From Desulfovibrionaceae bacterium (GTDB taxonomy: Bacteria; Desulfobacterota; Desulfovibrionia; Desulfovibrionales; Desulfovibrionaceae): DNA of 32,512 nt. How positions within the stretch are numbered: position 1 is the stretch's first letter; every line of letters begins with the position of its first letter. Below, piece after piece: positions 190-21,379 of the stretch. The notes under the pieces were generated by a model. It was given only the letters and a program-made list of their open reading frames with translations. It had not been told where the DNA came from and searched no databases. The stretch lies in assembly GCA_015233395.1 (NCBI GenBank), contig JADFXV010000034.1, positions 1-32,512 on the forward strand, written 5' to 3'. Both the position numbers and the translations under genes were made by a program.

Positions 190-2838
190 TTATTCGCCTC
201 CAAAGGCGTTCTTCCATTCGTGGAGCAGGTTGAGTGCCTCAAGAGGGGTGAGGCGGTCAATATCCAGGGCGGTAAATTTTTTCACAAGCGGATGTTCGTC
301 CGGCGGGTCCGGTTGCGCACAGGTTTCGCGCGGCGCGGGCAGGCCTGGCAGGAGCGGCTGGTTTTCGGTGATGGCGCGTATGGTTTCGCCGCGCAGCTGT
401 TTGCCTTTTTTTTCCAGTCCGGCCAGGATTTCGCGCGCCCGGGCGACCACCGGGCGCGGCACGCCGGCGAGTCTGGCCACTTCGATGCCGTAGCTGCGGT
501 CGGCCGGTCCGGGAACCAGGCGGCGCAAAAAAACGATGTCGCCCTTGTATTCCTTGACCGCGATGTTCAGGTTGCGCACGCCCGGCAGGCGGCCTTCCAG
601 GCCGGTCAGCTCGAAATAGTGGGTGGCGAACAGGGTGCGCACGCCGCCGCCGGGCCGCGCGGCCAGGTCTTCGACCACGGCCCAGGCCAGCGACAGGCCG
701 TCGAAGGTGCTCGTGCCCCGGCCGATTTCGTCCAGGATGACCAGGCTGTCGCGTCCGGCCTGGCGCAGGATGCGCGCGGTCTCCGTCATCTCCACCATGA
801 AGGTGCTTTGTCCCTGGGCCAGGTTGTCCGAGGCGCCGACCCGGGTGAACACCCGCCCGGCCAGGCCGATTGTCGCCTCGCGCGCCGGGACGAAGGAGCC
901 CATCTGGGCCAGGATGACGATGATCGCGGTCTGGCGCAGCGCCGTGGACTTTCCGGCCATGTTCGGGCCGGTGATGATCGCGATGCGTCCGGCCGCGTCG
1001 ATGGTCACGTCGTTGGGGATGAAGCTGCCCGGCGCCGCCTGCGCCTCGACCACCGGATGGCGGCCGGCCTTGATGACGATGTCCAGGTCGCGCGTGACCG
1101 CCGGCCGGACCCAGTCCCATTTGCGCGCCGCGGCCGCCAGGCTCTGGTAGTAGTCGAGCAGTCCCAGCGCCCGGCCCATGGCCATCAGTCGCGCCCGGGC
1201 CGCGGCCACGAGTTCGCGCAGTTCGCAAAAAAGTTTGTATTCCATTGACTTGCGAGAGTCCGAGGCGCTGAGGAGCTTTTCTTCGAGCGTGCTCAGGGCC
1301 TGCGTGACGTAGCGTTCGACTCCGGCCAGGGTCTGTTTGCGCACGAAATGCGCCGGGGGCTGTCCGGCCGCCCGGGAGAGCTCGAAATAATAGCCGAACA
1401 CCCGGTTGTAGCCGAGTTTGAGCTTGGGCAGGCCGCCGGCGCGCTGCTCTTCTTCCAATAATTCCTTGAGTTTGGCCTCGCCGTGTTCGGAGAGTTCGAG
1501 CAGTTCGTCGAGTTCGCGGTCGTAACCCGGCCGGAAGAGCCCGCCCTCGCTGACCAAAACCGGCGGCGAATCCACCAGCGCCGCCGCAAGCGTGGCGCGC
1601 AGGTCGTCGAGTCCGTCCCAGGCGGCCAGGAGATCGTCGAGCGCCGCCGGAAGTTTGTCGCCCGATCCGGCCGCATCGGCCAGGGCGGCGTGCGCCCCGG
1701 GCAGGGCGGCCAGGCTTTCGCGCAGGGCGGCGAAATCGCGCGGCGCGGTGCGGTTGAGATAAATGCGGGTGGAAAGCCGCTCCAGGTCGTACACCCGGTC
1801 CAGGGCGCGGCGCAGGTCGAGCAGGACGCCGTCGTTCTGCGCGAAGAACGCCACCGCGTCCTGGTCGTAGGCGATTTTTCCGGCGTCAAGCCAGGGCTGG
1901 CGCAGCCTGGTCTCAAGCAGGCGCCCGCCCATGGGCGTAAGCGTCTGGTCCAGGACGTGAATCAATGTCCCCGGGCCTTTGCGGCCGTCCAGGCGGCGAA
2001 AAAGCTCCAGATTGCGCTCGGTGACTTCGTCGATGAGCAGGTGGTCGCCGGGCGTCACCTGCGTGAACTGGCCCAGATGCGACAGCGGATGCTTCTGGGT
2101 CTGCACCAGATAGAGCAGCAGGGCGCCCATGGCCCGGACCAGTTCCGGCTTGTCGTCGAGATCGAGCGTGGACAATTGCGCCACGCCCTGGGCGGCGAGG
2201 ATCTTGTCCACGGCCTGAGCGCGGTCGAAATAGGGCGAGGCGGGATAGGCGTTGATCAGCGCCCGTGTTTCTTTGACCGGCCCGGGAATTTCCAGCGCTT
2301 GCGGCGCGATGATCTCGCGCGGGGAGAGCTTGATCAGCCATTGCCACAGGTCGCGCTCGCGTTTCGCGCACAGACCGGAAAACTCGCCCGTGGAATAATC
2401 GATGAACGCGAGCCCCCCGGCGTTTGCGCCGGCGTCCCAGAACACGGCGCACAAGTAGTTGTGGGCCTTGGACTCAAGGCTTTCGTCCTCGGACACGGTG
2501 CCGGGCGTGAGCACCCGGGTCACGGCCCGCTTGACCAGGCCCTTGGCGAGTTTGGGATCTTCGATCTGGTCGCAGATCGCGATCTTGAAGCCTTTTTCCA
2601 AGAGCTGGGCCAGGTAGCCGGAGACGGCGTGGTGAGGCACCCCGGCCATGGGCACGGGGTTTTCCGCGCCCGGATTGCGCGAGGTGAGCGTGATGCCGAG
2701 CTCGCGCGAGGCCGCCCGGGCGTCCTCGAAAAAAAGCTCGTAGAAATCGCCCATGCGGTAAAACAGCAGGGCGTCGGGGTATTCCTGCTTGAGCCGGACG
2801 TATTGATCCAGGGCCGGGGGGAGTTTGACCGGATTCAC
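190..2838 (-). CDS. mutS: DNA mismatch repair protein MutS
   Basis: MutS recognises mismatched or looped bases in newly replicated DNA and, with MutL, starts repair; it acts in the cytoplasm on DNA. The 882-residue length is normal for the family. The mismatch-reading Phe-x-Glu motif is present as FYE at about residues 32-34 (in MGDFYELF). The ABC-type ATPase has Walker A GPNMAGKST at about 624-632, followed by Walker B LVILDEIGRGTSTFDG. A C-terminal helical tail (HPLVKKFTALDIDRLTPLEAL) is intact. The start is a GTG at 2838 with only a weak upstream GGGTGA; the next residues (NPVKLPPALDQY) are the usual MutS beginning, so the start is likely right. It lies 72 bases behind the lapA-like gene, in the same direction, and may be the last gene of a HIT-lapA-mutS run. 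Confidence 0.97.
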   Translation of the reverse strand: MNPVKLPPALDQYVRLKQEYPDALLFYRMGDFYELFFEDARAASRELGITLTSRNPGAENPVPMAGVPHHAVSGYLAQLLEKGFKIAICDQIEDPKLAKGLVKRAVTRVLTPGTVSEDESLESKAHNYLCAVFWDAGANAGGLAFIDYSTGEFSGLCAKRERDLWQWLIKLSPREIIAPQALEIPGPVKETRALINAYPASPYFDRAQAVDKILAAQGVAQLSTLDLDDKPELVRAMGALLLYLVQTQKHPLSHLGQFTQVTPGDHLLIDEVTERNLELFRRLDGRKGPGTLIHVLDQTLTPMGGRLLETRLRQPWLDAGKIAYDQDAVAFFAQNDGVLLDLRRALDRVYDLERLSTRIYLNRTAPRDFAALRESLAALPGAHAALADAAGSGDKLPAALDDLLAAWDGLDDLRATLAAALVDSPPVLVSEGGLFRPGYDRELDELLELSEHGEAKLKELLEEEQRAGGLPKLKLGYNRVFGYYFELSRAAGQPPAHFVRKQTLAGVERYVTQALSTLEEKLLSASDSRKSMEYKLFCELRELVAAARARLMAMGRALGLLDYYQSLAAAARKWDWVRPAVTRDLDIVIKAGRHPVVEAQAAPGSFIPNDVTIDAAGRIAIITGPNMAGKSTALRQTAIIVILAQMGSFVPAREATIGLAGRVFTRVGASDNLAQGQSTFMVEMTETARILRQAGRDSLVILDEIGRGTSTFDGLSLAWAVVEDLAARPGGGVRTLFATHYFELTGLEGRLPGVRNLNIAVKEYKGDIVFLRRLVPGPADRSYGIEVARLAGVPRPVVARAREILAGLEKKGKQLRGETIRAITENQPLLPGLPAPRETCAQPDPPDEHPLVKKFTALDIDRLTPLEALNLLHEWKNAFGGE

Positions 2839-2910
2839 GGGCTCACCCGCCGCGCCCGCGCGAAACCGGACGCGGGCGCGGCATGCGGAAGTTCATCGCG
2901 GGGGCTGGCC

Positions 2911-3276
2911 CTATTGATCTTGAGCCGATTGGACCGGAGCCGGATCGGACAGGGTGATGCCGGACGGCCGCACGACCGCCGGGACGTTGCGCTGCGACAA
3001 TTCTTTTTCCAGCGAGGACACCCGGGCCTTGGCCTCGCTCAGGCGCGTCGCGCAGCGGATCTTGTCGGCGATGAAATACAGGCAGGCGGCCAAGGCGCCG
3101 ATGGCGAAACTGCCCAGGATCAACAGGTAGATGGGCAATTCGGCTGAGGCGTAGCTCCAGGAGAGCACGGAGAGCCTGATCACCAGCGCGCGCGACAAAT
3201 CGTCGGTGTTCTGCACGAAAAAGAGCATGGAAACAAAGAAAAAAGCGATCAAAAATAGGGCTTTGATATAGCGCAT
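2911..3276 (-). CDS. LapA-domain small inner-membrane protein
   Basis: This 121-residue protein has two predicted membrane segments, about residues 5-24 (ALFLIAFFFVSMLFFVQNT) and 46-66 (LPIYLLILGSFAIGALAACL), followed by a charged segment with coiled-coil character (SEAKARVSSLEKELSQ). The layout and the FxxQN motif after the first helix match the LapA (lipopolysaccharide assembly protein A, DUF1049) family. In enterobacteria LapA works with LapB in controlling LPS synthesis; no lapB is visible here, so the role is inferred from family only. Its ATG overlaps the stop codon of the upstream HIT gene by one base (TAATG), suggesting coupled translation. The family call is fairly safe, the function less so. 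Confidence 0.8.
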   Translation of the reverse strand: MRYIKALFLIAFFFVSMLFFVQNTDDLSRALVIRLSVLSWSYASAELPIYLLILGSFAIGALAACLYFIADKIRCATRLSEAKARVSSLEKELSQRNVPAVVRPSGITLSDPAPVQSAQDQ

Positions 3277-3881: not shown

Positions 3882-5294
3882 TCATATCATGCGCAGGTCG
3901 AACACGGTTTCGGCGTCGGCGTCCCAGCCGTCCCAGAGGAAATCATCGTGGCGGCCCTCGGCGATCAGGCGCAGGGCGTAGCGCGCCTGGCGTTCGTAGA
4001 AGCGGCAAAAAGCCCCGGGCCGGTCCATGCCGCCGTTCATTTCGACGGCTTCGGCCGGGCAGGGCGAGCCGCAGAAATGGCGCACGGCGCAGCGCTTGCA
4101 CGGTTCGATGTCCTCGACCTTGCGGCCGGTGACTTTGGCGAAGGCCGGGGACTTAAGAATATCCGGGATCTGGTCGTCAAACAGGTTGCCGCCCCTAAAA
4201 TCGGGCAGGCCGACGAATTCGCTGCACGGGAACACGTCGCCGCCGGGCGCGAGCGCAAAGAAGCAGCGTCCGCCGCCGCAGGGCGAGATGTCGCACATGA
4301 GCCGGCGGGCCGTGGGCGCGACGACGCCGAGGATGATGTTGGCGAAATTGGCCACCACCAGCTTGCGGCCGGTCTTGCGGTAGAGCTCGTGCGTTTTTTC
4401 CAGGGCCTTGACGAACCAGGTCGCGGCCTCTTCGTCGCCGGGCTTGATTTCGCGCGCCCCGGGCAGGGTGCAGCGCACCATGTTGAGCAGGCAGGCCGGG
4501 ACTTCGTTTTCGTGGAAATATTCGGCGATGCCGGGCAGGGCGCGCAGGTTCCGCGAGGTGACGGTGCAGATCACGTTGAAACCGGGATAGCCGCGCAGCT
4601 TTTTCATGGCCGCGACGACTTTTTTCGAGACGCCCTGGCCGTTCCAGTTGACCCGCGCCCGGTCGGCGACCGCGGCGGTGCGGCCGTCGAGCGAAATGCC
4701 GACGCCGACGCCCCGGCCGGTCAAAAACGAAATGGCCTCGTCGTCGAGCAGGGTGGCGTTGGTCTGCACGCCAAAACGCATCCGGTCGTCGAATTTCTCG
4801 ATGCCCGCGAACACCGCCTCGCGGTTGAGCAGCGGTTCGGCGCCGTGGAACACGATCTGGGGCAGGCGTCCCTCGGGCATGACCGAACGGAAATGTTTTT
4901 CAAGAATTTCCAGGGCTTCGAGCAGGCGCGCGGTGCTCATGTGCTCGCCGTGGGCGCGCATGTCCGCCGGGATGTAGCAATAGGCGCAGTTGAGGTTGCA
5001 GCGCTCGGTGGGGTTGAAATAGACCGCCGAGGGCGTCAGGCCGAAGCGCAGCCCCTCCATCTGGGCGGCGAAGACTTCGGCCTTCTCCAGATAGGCGGCG
5101 AGGAAACGCTTGCCGGTCAGGACATCGGCGAGCGAGTCCTTGCGCACGAGCGACCAGAAGGCGGTGTCCGGCTCGACCACGGCCAGGTAGTCAGGGTGTC
5201 CGATGTCGATGGGCGAGAACGTCGGGCCGATGCCGGTATTGGCCAGGCGGCCCGAGGGCCGGGCCGCCTGGGTTTGCGTGTCCGCAATCGGCAT
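3882..5294 (-). CDS. cbpB: peptide-modifying radical SAM/SPASM enzyme, CbpB type
   Basis: This 470-residue protein is a radical SAM enzyme with a SPASM-like C-terminal region. The S-adenosylmethionine iron-sulfur motif CxxxCxxC is CNLNCAYC with C99, C103 and C106. It is followed by HGAEPLLN and QTNATLLD, as in sulfatase-maturase-like peptide modifiers. Nine cysteines at about 334, 339, 344, 357, 399, 402, 408, 412 and 430 can hold two auxiliary clusters. The family has the recalled name CbpB, the partner of the short precursor CbpA; here a 34-residue peptide gene lies directly upstream and shares one base with it (TGATG). That overlap fixes the start at 5294 rather than the longer frame to 5405. 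The likely role is a radical-based change in the peptide, perhaps at its single Cys; the actual chemistry is unknown. The pair sits behind a cobalamin riboswitch. The enzyme shows no B12-binding domain. Confidence 0.88.
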   Translation of the reverse strand: MPIADTQTQAARPSGRLANTGIGPTFSPIDIGHPDYLAVVEPDTAFWSLVRKDSLADVLTGKRFLAAYLEKAEVFAAQMEGLRFGLTPSAVYFNPTERCNLNCAYCYIPADMRAHGEHMSTARLLEALEILEKHFRSVMPEGRLPQIVFHGAEPLLNREAVFAGIEKFDDRMRFGVQTNATLLDDEAISFLTGRGVGVGISLDGRTAAVADRARVNWNGQGVSKKVVAAMKKLRGYPGFNVICTVTSRNLRALPGIAEYFHENEVPACLLNMVRCTLPGAREIKPGDEEAATWFVKALEKTHELYRKTGRKLVVANFANIILGVVAPTARRLMCDISPCGGGRCFFALAPGGDVFPCSEFVGLPDFRGGNLFDDQIPDILKSPAFAKVTGRKVEDIEPCKRCAVRHFCGSPCPAEAVEMNGGMDRPGAFCRFYERQARYALRLIAEGRHDDFLWDGWDADAETVFDLRMI

Positions 5295-5398
5295 CAGCGG
5301 GCCTTTTTGTCCATGAGAATGTAGTGCGACAGGCCGGTGCCGTCGGCCTTGCAGGCCTTGCGGAAGGCGATCACCACGGGTTTCTTGGCTTTCTTCAT
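5294..5398 (-). CDS. cbpA: 34-residue modified-peptide precursor, CbpA type
   Basis: The translation begins MKKAKKPVVIAFRKAC and ends GTGLSHYILMDKKAR. It is 34 residues long, with one cysteine (C16), a basic N-terminus, and a Gly-rich GTGLSHYI segment that I recall as the conserved core of CbpA peptides. A very strong ribosome-binding site, AGGAGGTG at 5403-5410, stands five bases before the ATG. The stop codon overlaps the cbpB start by one base, so the two are translationally coupled. There is no signal peptide and no double-Gly leader, and no exporter or protease gene lies next to it, so the product may stay in the cell. The gene is shorter than most gene finders accept. Substrate status is inferred from position, coupling and family resemblance; the modification is unknown. 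Confidence 0.85.
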   Translation of the reverse strand: MKKAKKPVVIAFRKACKADGTGLSHYILMDKKAR

Positions 5399-5410
5399 AC
5401 TTCACCTCCT

Positions 5411-5546
5411 GGTTTAAGTTTTCAGGAAAAAACTATATTCACAGTGTCTTGACGCCGCTTTTGGGACCGATCGAAAACCAGAACCACTATTTTTTCCCCA
5501 GGGGGCTGCCGCCCCCGGCCCCTGCTTGGGCGGAGCGGCCCGCAAT
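5411..5546 (-). other. leader between the riboswitch terminator and cbpA
   Basis: This untranslated stretch holds the hairpin GGGGGCTGCCGCCCCC at 5501-5516 and an A/T-rich GAATATAGTTTTTTCC segment near the cbpA ribosome-binding site. TATAGT in it resembles a -10 box, but no -35 box is found at the right distance. No open frame here looks like a gene. Confidence 0.4.
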
Positions 5547-5583
5547 AAAAAAAGGGCTCCGACGGTGTAAGCCGCCGAAACCC
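5547..5583 (-). terminator. intrinsic terminator behind the cobalamin riboswitch
   Basis: On the minus strand, GGGTTTCGGCGG pairs with CCGTCGGAGCCC across a 6-base loop and runs into TTTTTTT. It stands about 30 bases behind the riboswitch aptamer and about 150 bases before cbpA, the right place for attenuation: with B12 bound, transcription should stop before cbpA-cbpB. The B12 response is inferred from the usual behaviour of such riboswitches. Confidence 0.8.
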
Positions 5584-5613
5584 TTTGCCATCGGATTTCG
5601 AAAATATAATGTC

Positions 5614-5775
5614 GCGACAGGTCTTCTGGCTCTCGGATCAAGCGCGCGAAGGCAGCCTTCCCAAGGGATTTCCCCTCAGTGACCGGCGTAACGCCAAGCC
5701 TTCACGCGTCCCCGATTACAGCGGCGGGTCCGCCACGGAATTGCACCGTGTTCCTGGATGTCGGCAACAAGTCGC
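5614..5775 (-). promoter_or_regulatory. cobalamin (B12) riboswitch
   Basis: The minus strand carries the landmarks of the adenosylcobalamin aptamer in order: GGAACACGGTGCAATTCCG, GGACCCGCCGCTGTAAT, GTCACTG, GGGAAGG, and the B12 box AGAGCCAGAAGACCTG. A closing stem of GCGAC (5' side, near 5775) with GTCGC (3' side, near 5614) gives the approximate borders. It is followed by an intrinsic terminator and then cbpA-cbpB. No B12 synthesis, transport or B12-dependent enzyme gene follows, so the controlled unit appears to be the peptide cassette. Confidence 0.92.
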
Positions 5776-5902: not shown

Positions 5903-6006
5903 CCGGGGGCGATCATCGCCCCCGGCGGGGTCCAGGGGCAGCGCCCCTGGCGGGGTCCGGGGCAGCGCCCCTGGGCGGGGATTCCAAAGGGGCGCAGCCC
6001 CTTTGG
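5903..6006. repeat. row of four G/C hairpins
   Basis: Four hairpins stand in a row: 5903-5925 (arms around GATCATC), 5932-5950 (CAGGGGCAGCGCCCCTG), 5957-5974 (GGGGCAGCGCCCC) and 5984-6006 (CAAAGGGGCGCAGCCCCTTTG). They lie behind the stop codon of the nucleotidyltransferase gene and in front of the riboswitch. They may jointly act as a transcription block or protect the 3' end; none has a T run. Confidence 0.55.
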
Positions 6007-9591: not shown

Positions 9592-10803
9592 TCAACTGCC
9601 CGCGTTCCAGTTTTCGAGGTCTTCGAGGATGCTCCGGCCCACGGCGTATTTGTCGTAGTCGGGCGCGAAAAGACAGGGTTCGCGGGCCAGAAGCTCGCGG
9701 ATCGCCTCGTCGGGCCGGGTCGTGAGGACTTCCTCCTCGGCCCGGATGACGACCATGTTTTCGGGCATGGTGGCGGCGCGGCGTTCCTGTTCCCGGTTGG
9801 GGTGCTGTTCCGGGACGACCACGGCTTTGGTCTGGGTCAGGAGCACTTCGTTGACGATATTGTATCCGGCCCGGCACACGGCCAGATCGGCGATCGAGAG
9901 CAGATCGATGATCGAGTGGGCGAACGGCAGAAAGCGGACCTTGCCGGCCAGGGGGTGGGCGGCGATCTCCGCCTTGGTTTCCTCGGACAGGTAGGGGTCG
10001 AACGACATGACGACCTGATACGCGTCCAAGAGCCCCATGCGCTCGAACGCCTCAAAAAATTTTCCGGCCAGTCCGCCGACCTGTCCGTGACGGCCGAGCG
10101 ACATGACGGCCAGGCTTTTTTCGGACAGCGCATAGTGGTTGAGGACTTCCTGGCGCGCGGGCAATTCCTGGCGGGTTTTGGAGGTGATGCGGCCCAGGTA
10201 GCGGATTTTGGCGGCGAGTTCCGGGCCGTCGCCGAGGTATTCCGCGTTGAAATCGCAGACTGAGCGGTCTTCGAGCACGTAGATGTAATCGTACACCGAG
10301 GCGACGTTGATGCGGTCGCCGACGTCGTCGTAGCCGTCGGGGCTCACGTAGAGCAGCGGGGCGCTGCGGTAGATGCCGCGCGAGAGGTGGACCAGGGCGA
10401 ATTCGTCGGCCCGGCCGCGCCGGGTGTTTTTGCGCAGCACCAGCGGAATGGCCTCGCCTTTCAGGCCGGTCAGGGCGTGTTCCACCATCACCGCGTCGGG
10501 CTTGAAGAAATCGAGCGTGTCCAGGATCACTCTGGTGCGGTAGTCGAAGAGGTCGAAGACGGAAAAGGTCTTGAGAAAGCGAGGGTTGAAGGGCGCGCCG
10601 GGCTTGTCGATCTCCTGCTTGATGCCCGGCAGCTTGACGACGTCGATGCCTTCCTTGAGGAAAAGCTGCGGGGCGCTGCCGCCGGAGATGACCAAAAAAT
10701 CCAGATCCGGCCGCCATTTGCGCATGCCGGTGATGACCGAAAGCGTCCGGACCGCGTGGCCCAGGCCGATGGAATTGTGTGTGTAGACGAGAATTCGCCG
10801 CAT
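9592..10803 (-). CDS. MurG-like predicted glycosyltransferase
   Basis: A 403-residue protein that starts MRRILVYTHNSIGLGHAVRT. The GLGH turn near the N-terminus and the C-terminal segment CRAGYNIVNEVLLTQTKAVVVPE are typical of GT-B fold glycosyltransferases related to MurG (the COG4671 group, from memory). The C-terminal part should bind a nucleotide sugar; acceptor and product are unknown. An upstream in-frame extension to 10896 is Arg-rich and not conserved in character, so the ATG at 10803 was chosen, with GGAG about 14 bases before it. It follows the recombinase gene in the same direction, 158 bases away, with a small AGGCGC/GCGCCT hairpin at 10868-10881 between them. It converges on the phosphatase-fold gene. 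Confidence 0.78.
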   Translation of the reverse strand: MRRILVYTHNSIGLGHAVRTLSVITGMRKWRPDLDFLVISGGSAPQLFLKEGIDVVKLPGIKQEIDKPGAPFNPRFLKTFSVFDLFDYRTRVILDTLDFFKPDAVMVEHALTGLKGEAIPLVLRKNTRRGRADEFALVHLSRGIYRSAPLLYVSPDGYDDVGDRINVASVYDYIYVLEDRSVCDFNAEYLGDGPELAAKIRYLGRITSKTRQELPARQEVLNHYALSEKSLAVMSLGRHGQVGGLAGKFFEAFERMGLLDAYQVVMSFDPYLSEETKAEIAAHPLAGKVRFLPFAHSIIDLLSIADLAVCRAGYNIVNEVLLTQTKAVVVPEQHPNREQERRAATMPENMVVIRAEEEVLTTRPDEAIRELLAREPCLFAPDYDKYAVGRSILEDLENWNAGS

Positions 10804-20746: not shown

Positions 20747-21379
20747 TTGAGCGCGTTCATCATCACTCTGCACATCATCGCCTGTCTGGTTCTTATTGTC
20801 CTGGTCCTGTTGCAATCCGGCAAGGAGGGCATGGGCGTGATCTTCGGCGGCGGTTCGGGATCGGTCTTCGGCAGTTCCGGCGCGGGCGGCCTTCTGGTCA
20901 AGCTCACCAGCTACGTCGCGGCCGTCTTCCTGATCACCTCGCTGGCCTACAACTACTACTCCGGCGCCGAACGGCGCGTCTCGACCTCGGTCATGCAAAA
21001 CGTGAACATCGAGGATATCAAGCCCAAGGCGCCGGCCGGCGATAACGCCGCTCAGGCGCCGGCCGCTTCCCCCGCTTCCCCAACCGGCAAGGATGCTCCC
21101 AAGGCCGCCGTGCAATTTGAAGACATCAAGGCCGCGCCGCTCAAACCCGGCCTGACCGCTCCCGCGCCGGTGGACGCCGCCGTGCCGGCTCTTCCCGGAG
21201 TCGCGGCCAAGCAGGAACCGGCCGAGCCGGCCAATGCGGCCGGACCGGCCAATGCGGCCGGACCGGCCAATGCGGCCGGACCGGCCAATGCGGCCGGACC
21301 GGCCAATGCGGCCGCCGCGCCCGAAGCTTCGGCCGAGCCGGCCAAAGCGCCCCAAACGCCCGAAGCGCCCAAAAAATAG
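20747..21379 (+). CDS. secG: preprotein translocase subunit SecG with a long Ala/Pro-rich tail
   Basis: SecG is a small subunit of the SecYEG channel. The first 75 residues are a normal SecG: membrane helix one (IITLHIIACLVLIVLVLL), the conserved QSGKEGMGVIFGGG loop, then LVKLTSYVAAVFLITSLAY for helix two. The start is TTG at 20747 with GAGG a few bases before it. The protein is 210 residues, well over the 75-110 of typical SecG. The extra 130 residues are Ala/Pro/Glu-rich with no hydrophobic segment and contain a run of AGPANA units encoded by an 18-bp tandem repeat. Position behind pgk-tpiA is a common order for secG. Confidence 0.92.
   Translation: MSAFIITLHIIACLVLIVLVLLQSGKEGMGVIFGGGSGSVFGSSGAGGLLVKLTSYVAAVFLITSLAYNYYSGAERRVSTSVMQNVNIEDIKPKAPAGDNAAQAPAASPASPTGKDAPKAAVQFEDIKAAPLKPGLTAPAPVDAAVPALPGVAAKQEPAEPANAAGPANAAGPANAAGPANAAGPANAAAAPEASAEPAKAPQTPEAPKK
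21231..21314 (+). repeat. 18-bp tandem repeat in secG
   Basis: The unit CCAATGCGGCCGGACCGG occurs four times in full from 21231, with a fifth copy that agrees for 12 bases. It keeps the reading frame and encodes PANAAG units in the SecG tail. Repeats of this kind can change copy number by slippage without breaking the frame. Confidence 0.85.

Follow-up and report, generated by a model that had tools for sequence, protein, structure and literature searches.

We found that the precursor peptide gene cbpA and the radical SAM/SPASM enzyme gene cbpB form a small cassette that is, with high confidence, linked to vitamin B12 metabolism in some form, and comparison of the sequences indicates that the cassette is probably an unrecognised part of that metabolism. 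The cassette was found in the window, by which we mean the whole analysed stretch of 32,512 nucleotides, one complete contig of the source genome (G000, completeness 98.9%). It lies behind a cobalamin riboswitch and an intrinsic terminator, its gene order is shared by the relatives, its precursor is conserved widely, and its relatives are tied to cobalamin operons and to genomes that contain CobS. We favour a role in cobalt or corrinoid handling over the four alternatives that are weighed below.

All parts of the cassette lie on the minus strand and follow each other in the order of transcription given in Table 1. The match to the aptamer spans the full model (1-189; gathering score 31.5), and the terminator hairpin has a minimum free energy of -22.9 kcal/mol compared to -9.8 kcal/mol for shuffled sequences (z = -6). 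The two genes meet in the junction TGATG, in which the A is common to the TGA stop of cbpA and the ATG of cbpB. A sequence-only reading had claimed a riboswitch, a terminator, a strong ribosome-binding site, a 34-residue frame and an overlapping radical SAM gene, all of which we recovered, and its statement that no B12 gene is located beside the cassette is correct within the window. The gene downstream of cbpAB, which from its translation we take to encode a HIT-family protein, was not counted as a part of the cassette, since it is absent from the recurring neighbour clusters.

Table 1. Parts of the cbpAB cassette in the window, listed in the order of transcription.
Feature	Position	Strand	Basis
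Cobalamin riboswitch aptamer (RF00174)	5789-5599	-	cmscan, 73 bits, E 2.2e-16
Intrinsic terminator	5586-5541	-	15-pair hairpin (5586-5551) and T-run, lying 3' of the aptamer and 5' of cbpA
Ribosome-binding site AGGAGGTG	5410-5403	-	4 nt 5' of the cbpA ATG; read from sequence
cbpA, precursor peptide MKKAKKPVVIAFRKACKADGTGLSHYILMDKKAR, 34 residues	5398-5294	-	TIGR04164, 60 bits; translation; conserved neighbour
cbpB, radical SAM/SPASM enzyme, 470 aa	5294-3882	-	TIGR04163; Pfam Radical_SAM and SPASM; alignment; AF2 model

Two further features of the window were seen outside the cassette. GC-rich intergenic palindromes GGGGCAGCGCCCC are located at 5935-6001, and the genome contains 287 occurrences of the pattern GGGGSNNSGCCCC compared to 100 of the reversed control, possibly as an intergenic repeat family. 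At 20747-21379, the C-terminal part of a SecG-like frame contains a tandem repeat of GPANAA.

The enzyme belongs to TIGR04163 (rSAM_cobopep, peptide-modifying radical SAM enzyme CbpB; 681.6 bits, cut-off 375) and the peptide to TIGR04164 (cobo_pep, modified peptide precursor CbpA; cut-off 35), so that the CbpA/CbpB pair, which the sequence-only reading had named, is indeed the right family, both members scoring well above cut-off. The precursor gene stands immediately 5' of the enzyme gene, the proteins of the window show no difference from the two families, and the relatives keep the same gene order. CbpB also matches the Pfam families PF04055 (Radical_SAM) and PF13186 (SPASM) above the gathering score. 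The three cysteines of its CX3CX2C motif (residues 99-106; C99, C103 and C106) and the seven SPASM cysteines (339, 357, 399, 402, 408, 412 and 430) are invariant in the CbpB alignment. The next-best NCBIfam families are PapB (122.5 bits) and DynA (119 bits), and the nearest others are mostly peptide maturases; with a cut-off of 340 for NF047865, CbpB does not belong to the ranthipeptide maturases. A literature search found no paper that names TIGR04163, TIGR04164 or cobopep or that describes the system. CbpAB is hence a known family which, as far as we could find, has no described function. The family name "cobopep" suggests that the curators had recorded part of the cobalamin link; what we add is comparative evidence, drawn from sequences, that ties the cassette to corrinoid metabolism.

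One condition that the sequence-only reading had named as refuting it was a 34-residue frame that is not conserved next to homologous enzymes. We analyzed 97 CbpB loci from many phyla, 27 of them from genomes of the phylum and 70 from a named-genome collection, and searched upstream of CbpB with the pattern C-x(3-9)-[GN]L[STA]H[YF]. The frame is kept: a peptide with the motif was found near upstream in 94 of the 97 loci, while the same scan gave 0 matches in 1.96 Mb strand-bases of flanking sequence. Together with the TIGR04164 score, this shows that the frame is not there by chance. Two of the three loci without a match are located at contig edges (L055 and L097), and L074 is a genuine exception within the sequence examined. 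The conserved core reads C-x(4-7)-GL[STA]H[YF], with 4 to 7 residues between the Cys and the GL; because the scan pattern itself calls for Cys, Leu and His, part of their invariance was built in by the search, and the result is that nearly all loci fit. Thr (12) or Ala (3) can stand in for the Ser and Phe (12) for the Tyr, while Cys and His are kept, showing that neither the Ser nor the Tyr hydroxyl is needed. In 83 of the 94 peptides the third residue ahead of the Cys is an Arg, and the CbpA of the Archaeoglobaceae has only about 25-30 residues, nearly all of them core.

The two family models do not reach equally far. The distant CbpB enzymes of the cobalamin operons and of the Archaeoglobaceae pass TIGR04163 with 401-514 bits, and the Ferroglobus CbpA passes TIGR04164 (50.5 bits). 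Some Nitrospirota, Omnitrophota and archaeal relatives, however, have a CbpB above and a CbpA below the cut-off: the peptides of L092 and L105 score 19 and 23 bits, and one Nitrospirota-type peptide gives no match. Annotation would thus miss CbpA precursors of the type MKCAKTANGLTHFVMYGD. A GLTHF/GLSHF subgroup of CbpA is seen in loci of the cobalamin-operon kind (L078, positions 9725-9866, and also L080-L085, L088, L092 and L105); those of its peptides that were tested score under the TIGR04164 cut-off, while their CbpB pass TIGR04163. The model therefore misses precursors in the very lineages that have the most informative gene context.

The AF2 model of CbpB (pLDDT 88.5, 22 sequences) aligns with the maturase CteB over residues 24-446 (Z 33.5, rmsd 3.5, 380 aligned residues), and the sequence-profile search of the PDB again placed CteB first. 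In its SAM and SPASM domains the model also matches anaerobic sulfatase maturases. The N-terminal region, for which a peptide-recognition (RRE-like) domain was considered, is modelled as three strands plus helices (residues 27-84), and the CteB alignment of the whole model, starting at residue 24, takes it in. CteB makes a Cys thioether. Judged by family and predicted fold, CbpB would modify CbpA, most likely by a thioether or related cross-link that runs from the Cys to a carbon atom within GLxH(Y/F). Such a link is expected because the core has a single conserved Cys and because the Ser and Tyr hydroxyls are dispensable. The variable loop length fits better with a ring or a Cys/His chelate than with a fixed small-molecule scaffold.

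A cobalamin riboswitch was detected upstream on the same strand in 41 of the 55 loci tested, the window included. This was the case for 19 of 20 further Desulfobacterota loci and for 11 of 18, 6 of 8 and 4 of 8 loci in the other sets; the riboswitch of L035 is only just over the gathering score. The window has the RF00174 aptamer together with an expression platform upstream of the cassette on the same strand, as in a cobalamin riboswitch regulon. Aptamer plus terminator implies an OFF switch, and this layout is consistent with repression by B12. The genome of the window has three cobalamin riboswitches, one ahead of CbpAB, one ahead of a CbiK-like chelatase and BtuF, and one ahead of BtuC-BtuD-CbiL. 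Here CbiL was identified by TIGR01467, while BtuC, BtuD, BtuF and CbiK are presumed from their translations. In four distant loci, L078, L080, L086 and L092, the riboswitch lies 4-7 kb upstream, with cbpAB among the cobalamin genes that follow it.

The window and most Desulfobacterota relatives carry the cassette alone. In other loci it is embedded in cobalamin operons, as in L092, where the order is CobC-CobU-CobT-CobS-CobD-CobQ-CbpA-CbpB-CbiB-...-BtuFCD-CobA (most gene identities in L092 and L078 were confirmed by NCBIfam). Nearly all of the top twenty neighbour clusters within 10 kb are genes of cobalamin biosynthesis, cobalt transport or B12 transport. Counting the less ambiguous markers only, 27 of the 70 named-genome loci have at least two cobalamin biosynthesis or uptake markers, compared to 0 of 9 loci of other radical SAM enzymes and 0 of 73 viral-contig loci; a tenth control locus, L105, was left out because it proved to be a real CbpA locus. 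On the CbpB tree, which is a quick one with many weak forks, cobalamin context changes 10 times, at least 5 of the changes being forced by well-supported branches; as the context label is clustered by near-copies, this count and not a shuffle test is the relevant figure. According to the records, the loci with cobalamin context span Nitrospirota, Omnitrophota, Verrucomicrobiota, Planctomycetota, Chloroflexota, Pseudomonadota and Thermodesulfobacteriota. The sequence-only reading had left the product as cofactor-like, metal-binding or signalling; the finding of homologous cassettes inside cobalamin operons narrows this to a part of B12 metabolism.

No single partner gene recurs next to CbpB; the recurring set consists of the cobalamin genes and PP-loop ATP-pyrophosphatase-like families. 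Among the neighbour clusters, no exporter, no leader peptidase or processing protease and no dehydrogenase recurs near the cassette; the fact that neither an exporter nor a protease does so points to an intracellular site of action for the peptide. Viral contigs were rejected as a source of CbpB, as they hold only remote radical SAM proteins with at most 36% identity.

Several side observations concern these loci. An asparagine-synthase-like PP-loop protein recurs (L047, positions 2277-3272, and clusters in L048, L053 and L100), Dph6-like ATP pyrophosphatase frames are present in nine loci, and in corrinoid salvage operons proteins of both kinds are repeatedly found next to CbpAB and BtuF. L105 (positions 9810-10567), from a Methanomicrobia archaeon, carries CbpA and a frame-broken CbpB inside a CbiB-CobD-CobS cluster, to which a CbiZ/CbiS-like amidohydrolase also belongs. 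In L011, where the distance between cbpA and cbpB is unusually large, an Acido-Lenti-1 RNA (RF01687, 46 bits) is located between the two genes on the opposite strand (positions 1237-1281).

The distribution of the cassette points to the part of B12 metabolism that is concerned. Within the phylum, CbpB is present in 25 of 297 genomes, a patchy occurrence which shows that the cassette is not essential to B12 metabolism. CobS was found in all 25 genomes with CbpB compared to 188 of the remaining 269 (p about 3e-4 when counted by genome, 0.004 when counted by genus); the genomes are not independent of each other, and incomplete MAGs are among them. CobS acts in the last assembly steps, while CbiL belongs to ring synthesis. 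Across 69 CbpB genomes, CobS was found in 65, CobT in 60, CbiL in 51 and BluB above cut-off in 13. The 18 genomes in which CbiL was not found include incomplete MAGs and also apparent salvagers with BtuFCD (G385, G388 and others); the salvage-type operons have BtuFCD together with CobUTS. We rejected corrin-ring synthesis as the sole role because of these apparent salvagers, which likewise argue against a role limited to ring synthesis or cobalt insertion. The common ground of the CbpB genomes is uptake, salvage, adenosylation and nucleotide-loop assembly. In the planctomycete MAG G376 (L075) we found CbpAB and one cobalamin riboswitch, while CbiL, CobS, CobT and CbiA were not found; this is either an exception or an incomplete genome.

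Taken together, we propose that CbpAB is a B12-repressed accessory cassette which provides a cross-linked Cys/His peptide for handling cobalt or corrinoid when B12 is short. We put this forward tentatively, at somewhat under an even chance. When adenosylcobalamin is scarce, the riboswitch would let transcription pass the terminator and CbpA would be made. CbpB would then act on the C-x(4-7)-GL[STA]H[YF] core by radical SAM/SPASM chemistry, most likely tying the Cys to a residue of GLxH(Y/F) by a thioether or a comparable bond. The modified peptide would remain in the cell, and with its Cys and His it may bind or deliver cobalt or a corrinoid during uptake, salvage or late cobamide assembly. 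Of this scheme, the bond type, the site of action within the cell and the function in binding or delivery are what we infer here.

The strongest competitor, which we nevertheless consider unlikely, is that CbpA is the precursor of a redox or catalytic cofactor, like PqqA or MftA, that serves a separate enzyme of B12 metabolism. Members of the SPASM family make PQQ and mycofactocin, and a short core that is strongly conserved across phyla, the lack of an exporter and the tie to a cofactor pathway would all suit such a precursor. A small-molecule scaffold, however, is expected to have a fixed spacing, while the Cys-GL distance varies; moreover, the Tyr may be Phe, and neither a dehydrogenase nor a processing protease is a recurring neighbour.

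Two other readings appear improbable to a similar degree. The cassette could support a B12-independent bypass that is switched on at low B12, in the manner of the NrdDG or MetE isozymes, and the solitary position of the cassette in the window would agree with this. Since isozymes that do without B12 are likewise under B12 riboswitches, among them NrdDG in D. vulgaris and Desulfuromonas (PMC545781), other roles in B12-repressed units are possible. Against a bypass speaks that many lineages carry the cassette in the middle of operons among genes for cobalamin synthesis or salvage, and that within the phylum sample it occurs only in genomes that contain CobS. The modified peptide could also be secreted, as a corrinophore or metallophore, an intercellular signal or a bacteriocin. 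Many radical SAM RiPPs are secreted, and regulation by scarcity would resemble that of siderophores and methanobactin. Yet the surroundings of the cassette show no recurrent exporter or leader peptidase, the core is almost unchanged across phyla, unlike that of bacteriocins, and the short archaeal CbpA leaves little room beyond its core.

Replacement of a missing cobalamin step, for example lower-ligand (DMB) synthesis, is very improbable: few CbpB genomes have BluB above cut-off and CobT directly adjoins the cassette in some loci, but BluB absence is usual in anaerobes. CbpAB shares those 13 genomes with BluB and 60 of the 69 with CobT, which disfavours DMB synthesis, and the apparent salvagers exclude the corrin-ring steps as a sole role.

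The favoured role in cobalt or corrinoid handling would have a wider consequence. Most of the B12 pathway is usually taken to be described, and few cofactors derive from peptides. A conserved pair of peptide and radical SAM enzyme in the cobalamin operons of several bacterial phyla, with archaeal relatives, points to a corrinoid-handling component that has gone unrecognised. Speculatively, and with a little less confidence than in the proposal above, a radical-SAM-modified ribosomal peptide may be a component of B12 metabolism in bacteria and archaea, as a chaperone or cofactor that binds cobalt or corrinoid in salvage and late cobamide assembly. If true, it would to our knowledge be the first component of the B12 pathway to derive from a peptide. 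With one peptide, one enzyme and one riboswitch, CbpAB is a small and testable system.

Among known systems, the SCIFF/sactipeptide maturase CteB (PDB 5WGG and 5WHY) is the nearest solved structure by both sequence profile and fold, and its match to CbpB from residue 24 on includes part of the N-terminal domain. CbpB differs from it with about 20% identity, a CbpA with one core Cys and a location of the cassette under a B12 riboswitch. The ranthipeptide maturase PapB and the dynobactin maturase DynA, which gave the best other NCBIfam scores, both form cross-links in ribosomal peptides; CbpB falls far under their cut-offs (340 and 450), and precursors and contexts differ. From general knowledge, two functional parallels can be drawn. 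PQQ (PqqA/PqqE) and mycofactocin (MftA/MftC) likewise combine a short conserved precursor with a SPASM enzyme, are widely spread and stand in a metabolic rather than an antibiotic context, whereas the core residues of CbpA are different, its spacing is variable and CbpAB lacks accompanying genes for processing. Methanobactin and other metal-responsive RiPPs differ in that CbpB is of another enzyme class, no transporter stands alongside CbpAB and metal binding by CbpA is putative; what they share with the proposed system is that scarcity of a metal or cofactor leads to the making of a modified peptide.
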